Source: Actinomycetota bacterium (GTDB taxonomy: Bacteria; Actinomycetota; Nitriliruptoria; Nitriliruptorales; Nitriliruptoraceae). Taken from it: a stretch of DNA of 64,000 nt. The translations under genes and the position numbers were made by a program. The stretch lies in assembly GCA_019347575.1 (NCBI GenBank), contig JAHWKY010000004.1, positions 1 through 64,000 on the forward strand. Direction: 5' to 3'. The notes under the pieces are model-generated. The model worked only from the letters and a program-made list of their open reading frames with translations, was not told the DNA's origin and ran no database searches. This document shows positions 15,787 through 61,934 of the stretch, one piece after another; the stretch's first letter is position 1; every line of letters begins with the position of its first letter.

Positions 15787-17114
15787 GACGTCCGTCGGGA
15801 CGCACCCTCGTGGTGGCCGTCGCGGTCGCACTGGCCGTCACCGGTGTGGTCGCGAACCTCTGGCGGCCGGTCGCCCCGCCGCCCTCCGGCGGTCCGCCGG
15901 CGGTCGCGACGTTCCCGGTGGAGGTGTTGGCGGTGATCGAGCGCTACGCGATGCCCCGGTACCTGGCAGCACTCATGAGCCTGGTCCTGGCGACCGCCGT
16001 TCCCATCCTGGTGGTCGCGACCCGTCCGGGACGCCGACTCGTCGCGTGGCTCGCCGGACCGGAGGGGCGGCCGCGACCCCTCGCCGCCTTCGCCGTGGTC
16101 GGAGGCATCGTGCTCGCGGCTGCGATCGTCACGCTCCCCATCGACCTCTGGCGCGGTTACCTGCACGAGCAGGCGTGGGGGTTGCGCACCGCCGGCGCGG
16201 TGGGTTGGTGGCGTGACCACCTGCTCGACGTCGGCATCGTGACCGTGGTGGCCGGACTCGTCGGAGCCGGCCTGTTGACGGCGGTCCGACGCTGGCCGGC
16301 TTCGTGGCATTGGGGGCTGGTGCCCATCGTGACGCTGCTCGCCGCCGCGTTCGCCCTGGTCCTCCCCCTGATCGTCCAGCCGCTGTTCCTGTCGACGCAA
16401 CCGCTCGCACCCGGCCCGGTACACGACGCAGTGGCGGAGGTGCTGACACGGGCGGGGGAGGACGAGCTCGAGGTCGAGGTGGCCGATGCCAGCCGTCGCA
16501 CGACCCGGTCGAACGCATTCGTCACCGGCCTGGGACCAACTCGGCGGGTCGTGCTCTTCGACAACCTCGTGGCCGCCCCGGCGGATCGCGTGGCCGCGAC
16601 CGTCGCCCACGAGCTCGCGCACCGCGAGCACCGTGACATCGCCCGTGGGATCCTACTGACCGCGTCCGGCGTGCTACCCGTCGCGCTGGTGCTGCGATGT
16701 CTGTGGGGATCGCGATGGGCGGCCGCACGGATGCGAGCCCGATCACCATCGGACCCACGTCTGCTGGCGGTCGCGCTCGCTTTGGTCGCGGTCGCCCAGG
16801 TGGTCGGCCAACCGGTCGCCAACTGGGTCTCCCGTCGGGCGGAGGCGAGCGCTGATCACCGCGCGGCGGAGCTGACCGACCGGCCCGAGGCGCTCATCGA
16901 ACTCCAGCGTTCGTTCGTGCTGCGCGACCTCGCGAACCCCTCACCACCCGGCTGGGTGACGCTGCTGTGGGGCACCCATCCCTCGGTCTCTCGACGGATC
17001 CACGCTGCGGCGACGCAGGCCGACGAGCTGGACTGCGAAGGTGTCGGCCCGCCGCCGGGCGAGTGGCATCCCCGCCTACCCGTACGCTTCGGTCGATGCG
17101 CGTCCTCTGGGTGA
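15783..17114 (+). CDS. M48-family (Ste24-like) membrane metalloprotease
   Basis: 443 aa, multi-pass membrane protein. The zinc site is H276-E277-x-x-H280 (VAHELAHREH), with the third ligand Glu354 in RRAEASADHRA, matching the CAAX prenyl protease 1/Ste24 arrangement. RTTRSNAFVTGLGPTRRVVL, before the zinc helix, is also typical. In bacteria these proteases act in membrane protein quality control. Start GTG 15783 overlaps the lipoprotein stop. The final 19 bp overlap the next gene. Confidence 0.9.
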   Translation: MRRPSGRTLVVAVAVALAVTGVVANLWRPVAPPPSGGPPAVATFPVEVLAVIERYAMPRYLAALMSLVLATAVPILVVATRPGRRLVAWLAGPEGRPRPLAAFAVVGGIVLAAAIVTLPIDLWRGYLHEQAWGLRTAGAVGWWRDHLLDVGIVTVVAGLVGAGLLTAVRRWPASWHWGLVPIVTLLAAAFALVLPLIVQPLFLSTQPLAPGPVHDAVAEVLTRAGEDELEVEVADASRRTTRSNAFVTGLGPTRRVVLFDNLVAAPADRVAATVAHELAHREHRDIARGILLTASGVLPVALVLRCLWGSRWAAARMRARSPSDPRLLAVALALVAVAQVVGQPVANWVSRRAEASADHRAAELTDRPEALIELQRSFVLRDLANPSPPGWVTLLWGTHPSVSRRIHAAATQADELDCEGVGPPPGEWHPRLPVRFGRCASSG

Positions 17115-18220
17115 CCAACGACCTGCCGCCCCGGTCGGGCGGGATCGAGCAGTTCGTGCACAACCTGCTCGTCCGCGTCCACGCCGCGACCACGGTCGTG
17201 CTCGGTCCTGCCCACGGCGATGCGCGCGCTCACGATGCCGATGTCCCGTACCGGGTCGAACGCGCGGATGGGCCAGTGCGGCCAACGCGGGCCATCCGCG
17301 CCGACGTCGAGAGGTTGGTCGAGGACCACGATCCGGTCGTCGTGGTGCTCGGGGCGTCCTGGCCGCTGGGCGAACTCGCACCCTGGCTGCGGGATGGGCT
17401 CGGCCTCCCCGTCGTCGGTCTCACCCACGGGCTCGAAGCGGGTCTGTGCCGGATCGGGCTGGGCGCGCTCGTGCGGCGAGCGACCCGCAGCCTCGCCGCT
17501 GCGACGACCATCAGCGATTTCGCACAGGATGCGATGGGCGACCGTCTCGCTGCGCAGCGCATCCGTCGCATCCCCCCTGGTGTTGATCCCGACGTCTTCG
17601 CACCGGCGCGGCCGGGTGCCCTGGCGATGCGCACGCGTTGGGGTGTCCCCGATGACGCCCCGCTCGTCGGCTGCATCTCGCGACTCGTCCGCCGGAAGGG
17701 CCAGGACACCTTGCTGAGGGCCTGGCCGGCAGTGCACAACGCTCATCCCGGCGCGTGGCTCACCGTCGTCGGCACGGGGCCACTGGAGGGGACGCTGCGT
17801 GACGCGGCGCGGGATCTGCCGAACGTGGTCGTCACGGGCGAGGTCTCGTGGGCCGAGCTCGCGGACGCCCACGCCGCGTTGGAAGTGTTCGCGATGCCGT
17901 GCCGGACACGGCTGCTCGGAACCGACGTCGAGGGACTCGGCATCGTCTATCTCGAGGCCCAGGCTTGTGGTGTCCCCGTGGTCGCGGGGCGCTCGGGAGG
18001 CGCTCCCGAGGCCGTGCGCGATGGTGAGACGGGCCTGGTCGTCGACGGACGCGACGAGACGGAGGTCGCGGCCGCCGTGACCCGGCTGCTCAGCGACCGG
18101 GACCTGCGCGAGGACCTGGGGCGCGCCGGTCGTGAGTGGGTGCTGCAGAGGTGGACCTGGGACGTTATCGCTGAGCGCTTCGAGGGGCTCCTGGACGAGG
18201 TCGCGGCGGCGAAGCCGTAG
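17096..18220 (+). CDS. GT4-family glycosyltransferase, PimB-like
   Basis: 374 aa GT-B fold enzyme. The N-terminal MRVLWVTNDLPPRSGGIEQF is characteristic of phosphatidylinositol mannosyltransferases and their relatives. The C-terminal nucleotide-sugar region has VGCISRLVRRKGQD, VVGTGPLEGTL and the E-x7-E motif (YLEAQACGVPVVAG..GGAPE). GDP-mannose transfer to a lipid acceptor on the inner face of the membrane is likely, but acceptor specificity cannot be read from sequence. Confidence 0.85.
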   Translation: MRVLWVTNDLPPRSGGIEQFVHNLLVRVHAATTVVLGPAHGDARAHDADVPYRVERADGPVRPTRAIRADVERLVEDHDPVVVVLGASWPLGELAPWLRDGLGLPVVGLTHGLEAGLCRIGLGALVRRATRSLAAATTISDFAQDAMGDRLAAQRIRRIPPGVDPDVFAPARPGALAMRTRWGVPDDAPLVGCISRLVRRKGQDTLLRAWPAVHNAHPGAWLTVVGTGPLEGTLRDAARDLPNVVVTGEVSWAELADAHAALEVFAMPCRTRLLGTDVEGLGIVYLEAQACGVPVVAGRSGGAPEAVRDGETGLVVDGRDETEVAAAVTRLLSDRDLREDLGRAGREWVLQRWTWDVIAERFEGLLDEVAAAKP

Positions 18221-52583: not shown

Positions 52584-55500
52584 TCACAGACTGTCGCTGT
52601 CCTTGGAGATGTAGCCGAGCATGAACGTCTGGGGCATGCCCAGGTTGGCGCCCTCCCACGAGTCCTCCTCGGCCAGCACCTGCACGTTGGCCTCAACCCC
52701 GTCCAGGGCGGCCTTGGCGGCGAACTGGTCGGGTGCCGCACCGACGAACAGGTCGAACGAGATCGACTTGCCCGGTGCGATCTGGCCGAGCGTGCTCGAC
52801 AGCAGCAGGTCCATCTGGACGCCGTAGTCGGCGCTGCTGCCGAACGGTGGGCTCATGTTCTCGCCGTAGTCGATGCGGTGGTCGCTGTTGTTGAACGAGT
52901 CGATGATCTGGGGGTCGGGATGTTCGGTTCCCTTGGTCGTCAGCACGACATCGTCGGGGATCCCGGTGAGGAAGGTGTGCTGGTTGGTGATGAACTGCAC
53001 CCCTGCGTAGTTGGCCTTCTCGACGTCCCAGTCCATCACTCGCCGGTAGAGGGGGTCGATGGTCGTGCTGCCGCGGTTAGCCAGGGTGACGCGGACCTTG
53101 AACAATCGCGGGTCGCCGGTCAGGCTGTACTGGTGCGTGACGCGCAGCCACACGTCACGGTCGAACGAGGTCACATCGATGGTGGACGTGGCGGTGGTGC
53201 CGCTGGAGTCGAAGTCGACGATGTCGAGGTTCTCCACCCCTCCCGGCAGGTTGACCAGCAGATGGTGGCAGCGGTTGACGCCGGTCGAGATGCCGCTGTT
53301 GAAGTCCAGGATGCCCCAGCCCTCGCACGGGTTGACAGGTTCGGAGAGCCCGTCGTTGCCGGTGTTGATGCTCCGTACCCCCCGCCACGGCGACTTGCGG
53401 TGCGGCGAGTCGTTGCTGGCGGGGGCACCGAGCGTGGCGCTGGAGGTCAGGCCCAGCTCCACGGAGCTGCTCGCGAGGGTCTGGTAGTCGTGGAAGTAGT
53501 CAGCGGTCCAGGACACGTCGACGCCGCGCAGCACCTGGTCGGGTCGTGCGCCGAAGGCGATCACCAGCGTGGCCAGGTCGCAGTCGGCGGGCATGTGGAC
53601 CTCCAGGGTCATCACGTTGTCCACCCACACCCCGGTCCTGGCACCGGCGACGCAGCCGCTGGGCCACGCGCCCGAGGGAGCGAGGACGACGGTCACGTCA
53701 CGTTCGCGGCTGGTCCGAACCTCCACGCGGAGCAGACCGGGCGGGCCGGTGGGGCTGAACTCGACGTAGTGGGCACCGCCCGGAGACATCTCGCCGCTGC
53801 CTTGCAGGCGGCTCTGGCCGATCGTGCGCCGGTCCGCCTTGGGCTTGGGGTTGTTGGCTAGGTGGATCCGCCGCCAGATCTCTTCGGGGTCCCGCAGTCC
53901 GCCCGGCATGGCGTCGGCGTAGGTGACGGGGTAGCGGTAGGTGTCGCGCCAGAAGTTGGCGACGACCTCGGGGAAGCTGCTGCCGTGGTTCTCCACGGTC
54001 TCGGTGATGCTGTGCTGGATGCTGTTGTCGAAGAACCCGTCACCGACGATGTCCCAGATCTGACGGATCACGTCGGTGCCGAACCGGTCCTCGAGGTGGG
54101 TGGCGAACACGAACGAGCCGTAGGCGCGGCCCGCCCTGGCGAACGGGTTGGAGATGTCGTTGAGCGGCTTGTGGGGTGAGGACAGCACGCTGCCGATGTC
54201 GTTGGCGTAGCGGCCACGCTGCTCGGCGTCGTTGAACAGTCCGTCGTCATCGGCGGGGACACGGTTCTTCTTCTCGAGGTCGACGAAGACGTGCATGGTG
54301 GCCCACTCGGCGGTGGCCTCCCCCCACCACAGGTAGTCGGTGCTCCAGTCGCTCATCGAGTAGTACTTCAGCTGCACGACGTGGAAGAACTCGTGGATGG
54401 GCAGGTTGATGCCGACGGTGCCGTTGTCCATCCAGATCGATTCCTCCGCGAACGGCAGCGGCGGCACCCAGCCCCCTCCGTCGGGCATGGCGGTCAGCAG
54501 CACCTGGGTCCGGGGCGGGGGCAGCAGGTAGCCCATATCGTCGTAGACGCGTCGAGCCTCCTCCAGCGACCACAGCACCCGGTCGACGATGTCGGGCACA
54601 CCGTTGCTGACCCTATTGAGGGAGGCATCAAAAAAGTCGGTCAGCTGCACCGTGTTGAGGCCCTCGACGCGGTAGCGGACGGTGAAGTTGGCGCTGTCGC
54701 GTCTGCACTGGAAGAGGATCAACCCCGCGTCGGCGAACTCGGGCGTGGGACACTTGGGCAGCGTCGACTGCGTCGTCGCGTCCAGCGTCGAGGCGGTGGA
54801 CCCGTCCAGTTTGACGGTGAGGTGGTCGGTGATCGCGTCGCGGGTGGCCTGGGTGAGGTCGTCCCAGCTCTGCAGGAACTGCATCCCGGCCTGGTCGGCG
54901 TCGAGCTCACCCATGTCGGTGGTCCGGTAGCGGTCAGGTAGACGGTCGGGGTTGGTCAGCGCGTACACGCCGTAGAGGGCACGGTCGTCCTGGTCCAGGA
55001 TGCCGGCTTGGTGGTCGGCTTCGACCCGTTCGGCGGCGGAGAGACCGTTGCCGACCGTGACCTGCGGCCCGATGAGTGGAGGAGCGCTCTGGCCATCGAG
55101 GTCGAACACGACGCGTGTGCGGTAGGTGCCGTCGGGGAAGTCGGCCGCCCCATTGGTTTGGGACGTCGTGTCCCAGGACCCCTGCCACGTCCCGTCCGCA
55201 GCGGGGGTGTCGGTCACGGCGACGTCTCGCCACGTCGACTCGGTGGCGGCGGCGACCTGGAAGGTCGCGCTCGTCGCCGAGGCCGGTCCGAGCGCGGACA
55301 GCTCGACGGCGGACCACACGCTCTGGGCCTCGCCGGGCTTGACGAACGAGTAGCTGCCTGTGTTGACCGCGAGACGCACGTGAGCGGTGGTTCCCAGGTT
55401 GCCGGCGGCATCGCGGGCCCGTGCATGCAGCCACCACACGCCGTCGTCGACGCTCGCGAGGATGCTGCGGTCGCTGGTGGTCTGGGTCGGGACCGTGTCG

Positions 55501-58139
55501 GGTACCTGGTCGATCGCCCAGCGGTGCTCCCGCACGGGCGCGACGCTGGCCGGCGGCGTCAGCTCGGCCACCAAGCCTGCAACCGGGTGCCAAGCGTCGG
55601 GGTCGGGATGGGTGGGGAGGGTGACGGCGGGGGCGGCCGGCGCGGTCGCGTCGATGCGGACCCGGTAGTGACCGGTACGACCCCACAGCCCGGCGACGTT
55701 CCTGGCCCGGACGTGGAACCACCACTCTCCATCCGACAGGCCCGTGTAGAGCTGCGACGCGGCGGTGCCCTCCGAGACCGCGTCGGGTTCGGTGCCGGGC
55801 AGCTGGTCGAGCACGTACGAGTAGCCGTCGACCTGCACCCCTGAGACCAGCACGTTCCACTCCACGTAGAGATCACGTGACGCGCGCCACAGGTTCTGGC
55901 TGGGATGTGTCTGGGAGAACACCGCGGGTGCGGGGGGAGCCGGGCTGGCACCTCCCAGCAGCATCGGGCCGTACGCCACGTCGGGTGTGGCGTTGCCGGC
56001 CTTGTCGATGGCGCGTACGTGGAACCACCACTCGCCGGCAGCGAGCTTCGCACCTGCTGCGTTGGAGAAGGTCACGTCGGGGTCGCCGTCGCGGACCGTG
56101 TCCGCAGATTCGTCCTCGGATTGGTTGAACGCCCACGAGTAGCCCGCCAGTTCTGAGTCGGCGTCCGGCGACGATCTCCACCACACGCGCGGGTTGAACG
56201 TGTCCACCAGCTCGCGCCTGGGGGTAGACCCCGCCAGGACCTCCGGCAGCGGAGGCAGGGCATCATCGATCCGGATCCGGTGGTGCGACGTCGCACTCGC
56301 GCCGCCGGCCCGGTCCACGGCACGCACGTGGAACCACCACTCCCCCGCAGCGAGGTTGAAGAACGATCGGCTGGGCGCGGTCGTCATGACCTGCGCCGAT
56401 GGCTGGGTGGTCGGCACCCTGTTGATCGTGTAGGCGTAGCCCGCGACCCCCGAGGTCGCGTCCGTCGCCGTCCACGACAGGCGCGGATCATCGCTGACGT
56501 ACCAGCTCGCGGGGTCGGGATGGGTCATCGATTTCAGGTCGCTCAGGTCCGGCGACGCCGTGTCGACCCCGACCCGGAAGTGGGCGGTACCACTCCACAG
56601 CCCATCGCTTCGCTGTGCGCGTACGTGGAACCACCACTCCCCATCGTCGAGTCCGGGCAGGGTGACCGACGGTGTCGTGGTCGGGTTGGTGTCCACAGGG
56701 ATGGTGGTCGCGGAGGTGTCCAACGTCCAGGTGTAGCCGGCGATGTCGGCTCCGTTGTCGATGCTCCACGCCAGCTCGACCTCGTTAGATGGGTACCAGG
56801 CGCCCTCGTCGGGATGCGTCACCGAGGACACCGTGGGGGCCGGCGGCGGAGGTGTGTAGTCAACCACGATCCTCGGAGCGTTCCCCGAGCTGTGCCTGCT
56901 CGAGTCGTACATGGGGCCGGCCACCGTCGTGGCCTCGTTGCCCAGCATCAGCGCGAACCCGTTGAACGGCGCGCCAGCGGTGACCCACGCCTCGACCTGG
57001 CTGGAGACGTCGAAGTCGTGCCATTCGGTCAGCCCCGACTGCCACGCGGGGCGATCGTAGGTGGCGAACGGCTGCGCCGCCGTGATCGCCGCCAGCTCAT
57101 CCCAGGTCGACGTCGCGTCCCACCCGCCCGTCAGCTCGCGCAACTCGATGCTGTAGTCGTGCTCGTTGCAACGGAAGGTACTGCCCAGACACGCTCGCAG
57201 GTGCGCGCTGAAGGTGGCACTGTTGATGGTCGAGCCCGCAGGGATCTGGGACAGGTCGAAGCGGAGGAACGACCGGAGCTGGTCGATGTCGTATCCGTCC
57301 TCGTTCCACGACCCCGCCCCGAGGTGGATGTCGGTGGTGTTCAGCGCCCAACAGCCGCCACACCCCTCGGACTGGCGGTACGTGTAGGCGTCCATCACCA
57401 GCCCGCTACCGTCGCTGAAGTTGATCGTGGGGTCCAGCACGATCGGGTAGGACCGCCCCTCCAGCCAGCGCTCGTCGACCGACACCACCAGCTTCCATCC
57501 GTGAGCGATCGGCTCCACGGCGAGATGGGCACTTGCAGGATCCATGGCAACCGGGACGTGCCCCTCGCCGACGTCCTCGTAGGCGAACGGTGGCGGCAGC
57601 TCGACCCTGACCCCGCCCTCCAGGAGTCGGCTCGCCTGCAGACCGCCGGTGGGGGTCGCCTCGAGCTCGCCCAGCAGACGATTGGGGTCGATCAGCTCGA
57701 ACGTGAAGCTGTGCGGTGCATCGGGCGACTTCAGCACCAACTTCTTGGTCACGCCCGCCGGCGCGACCAGGAACTGAAGGTCGGTGTCCGTCGCCACATC
57801 TCGGTAGACGACCCCTCCACCGCGGGGGTCAGGCAGAGGCTTGGCGATAGAGAGTTCCGGTGCCGCCACGCGCACCGTTCGGTTCTCCGCAAGCTCCACA
57901 CGCAGCAAATCCGCAGGTGAGTCGCCGAAGACGATCGGTCGCCAGGCTCCGTCGGCCACGAACGGCCTCCCGCGATGTCCCGTCGCGCGCACCCCGGCAT
58001 CCACCCGCTCGGGTCGGACCTCGCGCGTGTCGTGCACGGGAGCCGTGAACAGCTCCGTGGTGACGCTCCCGGCAGGGTTGACACGTCGATGCGTGAACGG
58101 TGTCCACGACTCCACGTGCTCCGGTGGACGGATCGGCAC
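52584..58139 (-). CDS. Giant secreted multidomain protein with HExxH peptidase region
   Basis: 1851 aa in the open frame. A DNRLRE-type beta-domain (about 245-430) is followed by five Ig/FN3-like repeats each containing (D/A)GEWWFHVRA or a close variant (about 440-930), then a linker and a peptidase region with H1249-E-F-F-H1253 and WWGEATAEW (Glu1274), resembling gluzincin-type or MXAN_6640-like putative proteases. A C-terminal beta-rich region closes the protein. This frame begins at GTG 58139 with no signal peptide; an obvious one lies just upstream in another frame (58140-58291), so the gene is probably frameshifted. Confidence 0.8.
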   Translation of the reverse strand: MPIRPPEHVESWTPFTHRRVNPAGSVTTELFTAPVHDTREVRPERVDAGVRATGHRGRPFVADGAWRPIVFGDSPADLLRVELAENRTVRVAAPELSIAKPLPDPRGGGVVYRDVATDTDLQFLVAPAGVTKKLVLKSPDAPHSFTFELIDPNRLLGELEATPTGGLQASRLLEGGVRVELPPPFAYEDVGEGHVPVAMDPASAHLAVEPIAHGWKLVVSVDERWLEGRSYPIVLDPTINFSDGSGLVMDAYTYRQSEGCGGCWALNTTDIHLGAGSWNEDGYDIDQLRSFLRFDLSQIPAGSTINSATFSAHLRACLGSTFRCNEHDYSIELRELTGGWDATSTWDELAAITAAQPFATYDRPAWQSGLTEWHDFDVSSQVEAWVTAGAPFNGFALMLGNEATTVAGPMYDSSRHSSGNAPRIVVDYTPPPPAPTVSSVTHPDEGAWYPSNEVELAWSIDNGADIAGYTWTLDTSATTIPVDTNPTTTPSVTLPGLDDGEWWFHVRAQRSDGLWSGTAHFRVGVDTASPDLSDLKSMTHPDPASWYVSDDPRLSWTATDATSGVAGYAYTINRVPTTQPSAQVMTTAPSRSFFNLAAGEWWFHVRAVDRAGGASATSHHRIRIDDALPPLPEVLAGSTPRRELVDTFNPRVWWRSSPDADSELAGYSWAFNQSEDESADTVRDGDPDVTFSNAAGAKLAAGEWWFHVRAIDKAGNATPDVAYGPMLLGGASPAPPAPAVFSQTHPSQNLWRASRDLYVEWNVLVSGVQVDGYSYVLDQLPGTEPDAVSEGTAASQLYTGLSDGEWWFHVRARNVAGLWGRTGHYRVRIDATAPAAPAVTLPTHPDPDAWHPVAGLVAELTPPASVAPVREHRWAIDQVPDTVPTQTTSDRSILASVDDGVWWLHARARDAAGNLGTTAHVRLAVNTGSYSFVKPGEAQSVWSAVELSALGPASATSATFQVAAATESTWRDVAVTDTPAADGTWQGSWDTTSQTNGAADFPDGTYRTRVVFDLDGQSAPPLIGPQVTVGNGLSAAERVEADHQAGILDQDDRALYGVYALTNPDRLPDRYRTTDMGELDADQAGMQFLQSWDDLTQATRDAITDHLTVKLDGSTASTLDATTQSTLPKCPTPEFADAGLILFQCRRDSANFTVRYRVEGLNTVQLTDFFDASLNRVSNGVPDIVDRVLWSLEEARRVYDDMGYLLPPPRTQVLLTAMPDGGGWVPPLPFAEESIWMDNGTVGINLPIHEFFHVVQLKYYSMSDWSTDYLWWGEATAEWATMHVFVDLEKKNRVPADDDGLFNDAEQRGRYANDIGSVLSSPHKPLNDISNPFARAGRAYGSFVFATHLEDRFGTDVIRQIWDIVGDGFFDNSIQHSITETVENHGSSFPEVVANFWRDTYRYPVTYADAMPGGLRDPEEIWRRIHLANNPKPKADRRTIGQSRLQGSGEMSPGGAHYVEFSPTGPPGLLRVEVRTSRERDVTVVLAPSGAWPSGCVAGARTGVWVDNVMTLEVHMPADCDLATLVIAFGARPDQVLRGVDVSWTADYFHDYQTLASSSVELGLTSSATLGAPASNDSPHRKSPWRGVRSINTGNDGLSEPVNPCEGWGILDFNSGISTGVNRCHHLLVNLPGGVENLDIVDFDSSGTTATSTIDVTSFDRDVWLRVTHQYSLTGDPRLFKVRVTLANRGSTTIDPLYRRVMDWDVEKANYAGVQFITNQHTFLTGIPDDVVLTTKGTEHPDPQIIDSFNNSDHRIDYGENMSPPFGSSADYGVQMDLLLSSTLGQIAPGKSISFDLFVGAAPDQFAAKAALDGVEANVQVLAEEDSWEGANLGMPQTFMLGYISKDSDSL
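55330..56880 (-). repeat. Five tandem Ig/FN3-like repeat units within the giant gene
   Basis: Units of about 285-306 bp recur, each with the same GTGGAACCACCACTC-like block on the plus strand near 56626, 56327, 56021, 55713 and (diverged) 55428. They encode about 100-residue domains ending in WWFHVRA-type strands and RVRID-type linkers. Similarity is highest in the WWFHVRA strand, consistent with ancient duplication and local conversion. Confidence 0.7.
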
Positions 58140-58291
58140 GTCGGCGACCGCACCGTCGGGAGCCAGCCCTGGCTGTCATCCTCCTGAGCGGAGGCCGCTG
58201 GCTGCCTCCACGGACCCGCCGTCGTCACAACGCTGGCCGCCAGCGCGGTCATGACGAGCCAGGACAGTCTCGATGAGCGCGGGCTTCGCAT
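58140..58291 (-). other. Signal-peptide segment of the giant gene in the -1 frame
   Basis: ATG 58291 with a strong GGGGGAGA site starts MRSPRSSRLSWLVMTALAAS, a signal peptide with SPase I site ASA-QE at 35/36. Its frame diverges from the 1851-aa frame. The latter has a stop at 58176-58178, so the join must lie in 58140-58175, where PGLAPDGAVADV leads into the body. A one-base loss explains the arrangement. Read through, the protein would be about 1900 aa with a normal export signal. Confidence 0.65.
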
Positions 58292-59432: not shown

Positions 59433-60500
59433 TCAGGTGTGCGCGGACCGTCCCCACGCCCCCGCCTGTCGATCCCTCGACGGCTCGGCGAGGTCGCGAC
59501 CGACGATGTCGGAGAGGCGGGTCACGGTCTCGCGGAGGGTCAGGAGGTCGTCGCGGATCAGCGCCTGCGGTCCGTCGCACAGGGCGTGCTCAGGTTGCGG
59601 ATGCACGTCGATGATCACCCCGTCCGCACCCACGGCGATCGCCGCGCGCGTCAGCGGCAGCACCAGGTCGCGCTTGCCACCCGAGTGCGAGGGATCGACG
59701 ATGGTCGGCAGGTGCGTCAGGCTCTGCGCGACCGGGATCGCGGAGATGTCGAGCGTGTTGCGCGTGGTCGGCTCGTACGTGCGGATGCCGCGCTCGCACA
59801 GGACGATCTGCAGGTTGCCGGTGTGCGCGATGTACTCGGCGGCCATGATCCACTCGTCGATGGTGGCGGTCATGCCGCGCTTGAGCAGCACCGGCTTGCC
59901 GGCGATGCCGACCTCCTTGAGTAGCTGGAAGTTCTGCATGTTGCGCGTGCCGATCTGCAGCATGTCGGCCTTGGCCGACACCACCTCCACGTCCGCGGGC
60001 GTGACCACCTCGGTGACGAACGGCACCTCGAGGTCTCGGGACACCTCAGCGAGGATGTCCAGGCCCTTCTCACCGAGCCCCTGGAAGGAGTAGGGCGACG
60101 TGCGGGGCTTGTAGGCGCCGCCCCGGAAGATGGTGGCACCCGCCTCCTTCGCCATCTTGCACGCCGCGCGGGTCTGGTCCTCGGTCTCGACCGCACACGG
60201 TCCCGCGATGAGGGTGAACGTGTCGCGTCCTATCGGTACATCGCCGACCCACACGGTGGATGGTCGAGGGTGGGTCTCGGTGGACACCAGCTTGTACGGC
60301 TTGCTGACGCGGATGACGTCCTCGACGCCAGGGAAGGCGTGCAGTGGGAGCTCGGCGAACTGGGTGATGTCACCCACGAGCCCGATGATCGTCTGGTGCT
60401 TCCCGCGTGACACGAAGGCCTCGCCGCCCACCTCCGTCACCGCGGACACGACCTTGGTGATGTCCTCGTCGTTCGCGGTGTGGCGCATGACCACGACCAT
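59433..60500 (-). CDS. aroF: 3-deoxy-7-phosphoheptulonate (DAHP) synthase, type I-beta
   Basis: 355 aa. The N-terminal ferredoxin-like regulatory domain (1-70) is of the Thermotoga type, which in relatives binds aromatic end products. The catalytic barrel has IAGPCAVE, FRGGAYKPRTSPYSFQG, LQIGTRNMQNF, LLKRG and DPSHSGGKRDLV. It condenses PEP and erythrose-4-phosphate, the entry step of the shikimate pathway. Start ATG 60500 follows GGGAAGGA; GTG 60524 is possible. Four 39-bp repeats lie upstream. Confidence 0.95.
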   Translation of the reverse strand: MVVVMRHTANDEDITKVVSAVTEVGGEAFVSRGKHQTIIGLVGDITQFAELPLHAFPGVEDVIRVSKPYKLVSTETHPRPSTVWVGDVPIGRDTFTLIAGPCAVETEDQTRAACKMAKEAGATIFRGGAYKPRTSPYSFQGLGEKGLDILAEVSRDLEVPFVTEVVTPADVEVVSAKADMLQIGTRNMQNFQLLKEVGIAGKPVLLKRGMTATIDEWIMAAEYIAHTGNLQIVLCERGIRTYEPTTRNTLDISAIPVAQSLTHLPTIVDPSHSGGKRDLVLPLTRAAIAVGADGVIIDVHPQPEHALCDGPQALIRDDLLTLRETVTRLSDIVGRDLAEPSRDRQAGAWGRSAHT

Positions 60501-60557
60501 GCTCGTGTCCTTCCCGTAGGCCACACGTACCTCGTCGGCTCAGTTTCGAGTAGACCC

Positions 60558-60708
60558 GTGCTACCCGCCCTCCGGGCTACTTGAGCACGGTACTCCTGTG
60601 CTACCGCCCTCCGGGCTACTTGAGCACGGTACTCCTGTGCTACCGCCCTCCGGGCTACTTGAGCACGGTACTCCTGTGCTACCGCCCTCCGGGCTACTTG
60701 AGCACCGG
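60558..60708. repeat. 39-bp tandem repeat, four copies
   Basis: Exact units start at 60592 and 60631, a third at 60670 differs only in its last bases, and a truncated first copy (about 60558-60591) has one extra C. Each unit contains a small dyad GTGCT...GCCC-TCC-GGGC...AGCAC. The array sits 58-208 bp upstream of the aroF start. No variable spacers exist, so it is a direct-repeat (VNTR-like) array rather than a CRISPR. Confidence 0.9.
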
Positions 60709-60742: not shown

Positions 60743-60860
60743 GATGAGACCAGCGTAACGCTCCGTGCAGACGGCCGACAACCGCATCCCGTGCTCGCGG
60801 CGGCCACACCGCTGCGTACCCTGCTGCGACGACGCCGCACCGGATCGAGAGAGGGCACAC

Positions 60861-61934
60861 GTGTACTGTCCCGACTGCGGCGCCGGGGCGCGCGACGACG
60901 CCAACTACTGCCTGAGCTGCGGCTACGACCTGACCGATGTGCCTGGGAGTGGCATCGGTGCGCAGGGCCCTGCCGACCGTCCCCACGTGCAGGAGGCGGA
61001 GGGTCCCGGTGGTCAGCCCACCACACCCGTCACCCTGCGACCCGACGGGACGAGTGTCTCCCCGATCGAGATCGTTCAGCGTCCCGACATCGGTGCACGC
61101 CGAGTCGATCTGCGTGAGTGCCCCTCGTGTGGCGCTCCCAACGCCACCGACCGTGTCATGTGCGGCCGCTGCGGTGCCGATCTGTCCACCGGTGCCACGG
61201 GTGCCGTACCGCGGGCGGCGCGCCAGGATGCGTCCGCGACGGAGGCTTCGCGGAGTGAGGAGAAGCGCTCGATGGCGCGCCGGTCGCGACCGGGTCGGGG
61301 CACGATCACCGCCCTGATCGTCGTCCTCGGTGCCCTGCTGGGCGTGGGCCTCGGGTGGGCGGTCGTCAGCGGCCCGCTCGCGTCAGAGGAACCGCCGGGG
61401 ACCCCCGCGACACCCACCTTCGACCCCCAGGTGTACGCCGTCGCCCCGCAACGTCTGGACGTGGCGACCGTCGAGGCCAGCTCGACCCAACCGCAGCAGG
61501 GCGAGAACCGCTACGACGCCCCGATGCTGTTCGACCGCGACCTCACCACCGCCTGGAACAGCCAGGGTGTCACCTCCGAGGTCGACGTCGGCGAGCTGCT
61601 TCGGTTCAACCTCACCGGACCCGCGTGGGTCAGCCAGATCCTGGTCGGTAACGGCTACCAGAAGGACGACGAACGCTACTTCGGCAACGCGCGGGTCCGG
61701 CGCGCACGCCTCGAGTTCGACGATGGCGAGATGTTCGCGGTCATGCTGCTGGACCAGATGGGGATGCAGAGCATCGATCTGCCCGAGCCGGTGCTGACCC
61801 GACGGGTGACGCTCAGGATCCTCGAGACCTACGCGGGCACGACCTACGCGGACGTCGCGCTGGCCGAGATCGAGATCCACGGGCACCCGGCGACCGGGCC
61901 CGATGCCGAGTTCACAGCCCCTGCTCGGAGCTGA
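60861..61934 (+). CDS. Zinc-ribbon membrane protein with discoidin-like C-terminal domain
   Basis: 357 aa. Two zinc ribbons (YCPDCGAGARDDANYCLSCG at the start; CPSCGAPNATDRVMCGRCG near 90) are cytoplasmic. One membrane helix (about 152-172) follows, then an extracytoplasmic beta-domain with LFDRDLTTAWNSQG and ADVALAEIEIHGH, typical of F5/8-type (discoidin, NADase-type glycan-binding) domains. It may link cytoplasmic proteins to cell-surface glycans. Start GTG 60861 has GAGAGGG. It overlaps the convergent EamA gene by 23 bp. Confidence 0.75.
   Translation: MYCPDCGAGARDDANYCLSCGYDLTDVPGSGIGAQGPADRPHVQEAEGPGGQPTTPVTLRPDGTSVSPIEIVQRPDIGARRVDLRECPSCGAPNATDRVMCGRCGADLSTGATGAVPRAARQDASATEASRSEEKRSMARRSRPGRGTITALIVVLGALLGVGLGWAVVSGPLASEEPPGTPATPTFDPQVYAVAPQRLDVATVEASSTQPQQGENRYDAPMLFDRDLTTAWNSQGVTSEVDVGELLRFNLTGPAWVSQILVGNGYQKDDERYFGNARVRRARLEFDDGEMFAVMLLDQMGMQSIDLPEPVLTRRVTLRILETYAGTTYADVALAEIEIHGHPATGPDAEFTAPARS

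Follow-up and report, generated by a model that had tools for sequence, protein, structure and literature searches.

A large gene on the minus strand of the window (the whole stretch of 64,000 nucleotides that was analyzed) is carried as two pieces in different reading frames. We consider it very probable (about 0.88) that these pieces are a single gene for a Sec-exported, multidomain, protease-like protein, and that its reading frame is short of one base. The gene would encode, in order, a signal peptide, a DNRLRE module, five surface repeats, an HEFFH domain, and a C-terminal region; the product would be exported via the Sec pathway, and the lost base would fall at about 58177-58141, where the signal peptide gives way to the mature protein.

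The two frames and the junction between them

The upstream piece begins at ATG 58291 on the minus strand. Inspection of the sequence revealed a ribosome-binding site, GGGGGAG, at 58304-58298, six bases 5' of this ATG. The protein starts with MRSPRSSRLSWLVMTALAASVVTTAGPWRQPAASA, followed by QEDD; the n-, h-, and c-regions typical of Sec signal peptides can be recognized in this stretch. The sequence, together with a scan for signal peptide-like (SP-like) starts, predicts a signal peptide of 35 aa (58291-58187) that is cleaved between ASA and QE. A preliminary description of this DNA had reported the start and the cleavage site, and all of its coordinates hold. The ORF remains open to 57749 (58291-57749) and is noncoding 3' of the junction. 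It had been described as turning to junk, and the scores agree: the frame turns noncoding near 58150, with -28 bits over 58141-57902 compared with +16 bits for the body frame. As the sequence stands, a product begun at ATG 58291 would run to 180 aa and end in a junk tail, leaving the body without a good start.

The body frame lies one base away from the signal-peptide frame, equivalent to -1, and comprises 1863 open codons plus a stop (58175-52584). Its first start codon is GTG 58139, which has no ribosome-binding site ahead of it and from which 1851 aa would be read to the stop codon at 52586-52584; VNPAGSVTTELFTAPVHDTR is an example of a peptide from this body. Upstream of the GTG, the body frame contains only QPGLAPDGAVAD after a TGA at 58178-58176. 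No SP-like sequence was detected by the scan in the first 200 body residues, in line with the earlier statement that the body lies in another frame without an export signal. Under a base-composition model, an open frame of 1863 codons would arise by chance with a probability of about 1e-15. The GC3 of the body is 0.89, compared with 0.51 GC at position 2, and no signs of decay were seen in it. The view that this is not an old pseudogene is upheld by a fully open body with normal GC3 and retained active-site residues.

By codon usage, a single frame switch outscored an unbroken frame by 52 bits (51.8), with the best placement at 58165-58147 and the optimum at 58150; any point from 58174 to 58138 was within 4.6 bits of the optimum. 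TGA 58178-58176, a stop in the body frame, confines the switch to positions 3' of about 58177. From this stop codon and the codon log-likelihood, we place the junction, a change of frame by one base with one base missing, at 58177-58141. The join had earlier been confined to 58140-58175. The upstream limit of that interval stands, being set by the TGA; the lower limit is softer, as no stop bounds it, and relies on codon usage together with ESWTPFTHR, a conserved stretch that starts at 58112. Counted against the one-gene reading, the signal-peptide stretch had a codon usage score of -1.1 bits versus +1.7 bits for the body frame, and its own frame was not singled out. Readthrough of TGA 58178-58176 from an upstream ORF in the body frame (ATG 58382) was considered and rejected, as this ORF has no signal peptide. 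ATG 58179, which directly follows AGGAGG in the third frame, also was rejected; it is noncoding (-60 bits) and has no spacing.

Relatives and the ownership of the signal peptide

Because relatives of both the N-terminal module and the protease domain carry a signal peptide in frame, comparison of the sequences assigns the predicted signal peptide to the body protein and makes the break one missing base in one gene. Four relatives of the N-terminal module were found: one is a subtilase paralog encoded in the same genome, and the other three are large RHS-like proteins from G140, G023, and G031. All four have a hydrophobic signal sequence upstream of the module and in frame. The subtilase paralog (G000:C2, L020 5191-11835, plus strand), a cell-wall-binding protein of 2.2 k codons, resembles the window protein in its N-terminal DNRLRE module and repeats, with 37% identity over residues 9-609. 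Unlike the window protein, it has its signal peptide in frame, and Peptidase_S8 and CW_binding_2 replace the HEFFH domain. Its signal sequence ends about 20 residues before ESWTPFTH, and the spacing in the window gene is close to this once both frames are combined. By a lenient scan, an SP-like in-frame start was present in 24 of the 25 distant protease-domain relatives in which the 5' end is present, compared with 40 of 81 ordinary ORFs. The in-frame signal sequences of both groups support the earlier proposal of one secreted gene with the signal peptide as part of the body.

A scan of genome contigs for relatives returned only two distant matches. When the junction DNA was searched for in the 61 nearest genomes, none of which is of the same genus, only short chance matches emerged besides the window itself. 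The preliminary description had looked to the same junction in related genomes. Distant relatives are indeed in frame at this point; among the 61 genomes, no close relative spans the junction, and the intact form was not seen.

Domain composition of the body

The domains of the body point to a modular exported zinc-metalloprotease-like protein, with both secretion and zinc binding predicted from sequence. A DNRLRE domain at residues 282-426 (57296-56862) matched NF033679 with 64.9 bits, above the cutoff of 34. It is followed by five Ig-like/OmpL47-like repeats (56845-55361; approximate limits, residues 432-926), whose GEWWFHV or GVWWLHA cores lie at residues 500-906; the match to an OmpL47-type repeat in NCBIfam was below threshold. 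The core of an MXAN_6640-like metalloprotease domain was placed by alignment at residues 1249-1408 (54395-53916), where NF045524 scored 62.1 bits, below its cutoff of 140. The HEFFH motif occupies residues 1249-1253 (54395-54381). When the domain was aligned across 24 sequences (the window protein and 23 relatives), E1250, H1253, and E1274 were invariant and H1249 was nearly so, making E1274 (54320-54318) a candidate third zinc ligand. The putative zinc ligands of the HEFFH domain are all intact, and the layout of H1249, E1250, H1253, and E1274 is what we take to be expected for a gluzincin-type zinc site. A PDB search with the protease domain gave no match, and a literature search on MXAN_6640 found no paper.

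The window protein is like the MXAN_6640 family (NF045524) in its HExxH motif, the invariant E about 21 residues further on, the (G/E)ATAEW context, and its predicted secretion. It differs in its score (62 bits against a curated cutoff of 140), in sharing about 30% identity with its best relatives, and in carrying the domain as one part of a modular protein of 1851 aa. With the DNRLRE surface/secreted proteins (NF033679) it shares an above-cutoff DNRLRE domain near the mature N terminus, whereas its DNRLRE domain is joined to Ig-like repeats and a metalloprotease-like domain. CBM96, a carbohydrate-binding module, is related to the DNRLRE domain (PMC9971899).

We also noted that a small lipoprotein-like gene (52566-51907, minus strand; lipobox LAGC) starts just past the stop of the large gene. 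It had no Pfam match and may be cotranscribed with the large gene. On the other side of the large gene, a 39-bp unit is repeated in 3.8 copies with 99% identity at 60558-60705, a short distance 5' of the gene for DAHP synthase (59433-60524, minus strand). The protein encoded at 60765-61934 on the plus strand has zinc ribbons at its N terminus and an F5/8-type domain, NADase_transloc, at its C terminus.

Origin and meaning of the one-base offset

Four explanations of the offset had been put forward without a choice among them. Loss of one base, whether by assembly error or by recent deletion, is retained, and phase variation and -1 frameshifting are disfavored. On balance, the gene is probably continuous in the living cell, the missing base being a sequence or assembly error; a recent real deletion, by which an intact gene has only just been inactivated, is a tentative second choice, and we favor the error by about 2:1. 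This weighting follows from the draft state of the assembly, a second one-base loss, and the expectation from a published survey. The assembly comprises 120 contigs, with an estimated completeness of 98.8% and contamination of 4.6%. A frame-aware Viterbi scan for split genes across 303 kb of the same genome flagged three sites. C2:52543 was an ordinary overlap of transglycosylase and transporter genes and C4:155587 an ordinary gene end; the only real one-base break was in a DUF222/HNH-type endonuclease gene at about C2:202683 (L020 ~16644-18150, minus strand; G000:C2 ~201643-203149), which has lost one base in the same direction. The scan undercounts, since the window case itself went unflagged, GTG being available. 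This second broken gene lends little weight to a high error rate, since genes of its mobile-type family may decay of their own accord. Frame transitions that are unshared and supported by homology are expected to be mostly sequencing errors (Antonov et al., PMC3711429). The window gene resembles the singleton frame transitions of that GeneTack survey in having one frame change in one gene that is not common to relatives; it differs in that its junction lies at the signal-peptide boundary, so that homology does not span it tightly.

It is improbable that the body truly starts at GTG 58139 and is cytoplasmic, with the upstream signal peptide being a coincidence or a separate small ORF. The GTG is in frame and the codon signal in the stretch upstream is weak, both of which would suit such a start, but GTG 58139 is without a ribosome-binding site, and QPGLAPDGAVAD, immediately 5' of it, is still coding-like (+2.4 bits over 12 codons). 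Furthermore, relatives of the N-terminal module and of the protease domain alike have an export signal in frame. Across the 64-kb window, counting both strands and including real genes, no more than 18 start codons combined an SP-like sequence with a ribosome-binding site, and the probability of an accidental start of this kind in the given 150 nt before the body is about 2%.

Still less credence can be given to programmed -1 ribosomal frameshifting, which would join the signal peptide to the body and set the amount exported. The direction (-1) fits, and the junction contains two in-frame Z_ZZN tetramers, G_GGC at 58169 and C_CCG at 58160. However, the junction lacks an X_XXZ_ZZN heptamer, and among 13-codon windows taken from ordinary genes here, 46% contain a Z_ZZN tetramer. 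In E. coli, G_GGC is not among the shift-prone tetramers and C_CCG reaches 1.8 to 3.6 times background with the IS3 pseudoknot (PMC4066793), which makes both barely or not shift-prone in that organism. It is similarly doubtful that AGGAGG, as an internal Shine-Dalgarno sequence at the signal-peptide boundary, acts with G_GGC or C_CCG to drive a -1 slip and so set export of the giant protease: AGGAGG lies at a fitting distance upstream of a junction tetramer, but in 88 ordinary ORFs with 2192 tetramers, 22 of these had AGGAGG at the same spacing. In addition, downstream RNA folding was no better than that of shuffled sequences (z = -0.34), and relatives have the signal peptide in frame. Phase variation, in which the junction base count would switch between cells and turn export on or off, is just as hard to credit. 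In its favor, the body is intact, and a site that separates the signal peptide from it could work well as a switch. Against it, slipped-strand mispairing needs a repeat, and the junction has no tandem or simple-sequence repeat and no homopolymer of more than 3 bases in 58178-58140, its longest run being three bases.

The case serves more as a warning than as a new finding. An automatic annotation pipeline would be likely to start at GTG 58139, predict a cytoplasmic protein of 1851 aa, and overlook its export. The split itself is ordinary, and the gene is a modular exported actinobacterial-type protein of a known sort. If the offset is real and fixed, it would mean that a secreted protease has been lost only recently or, with far lower probability, that export is switched by recoding. 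In this genome, a single actinobacterial export module (DNRLRE plus repeats) is paired with protease domains of two different types.
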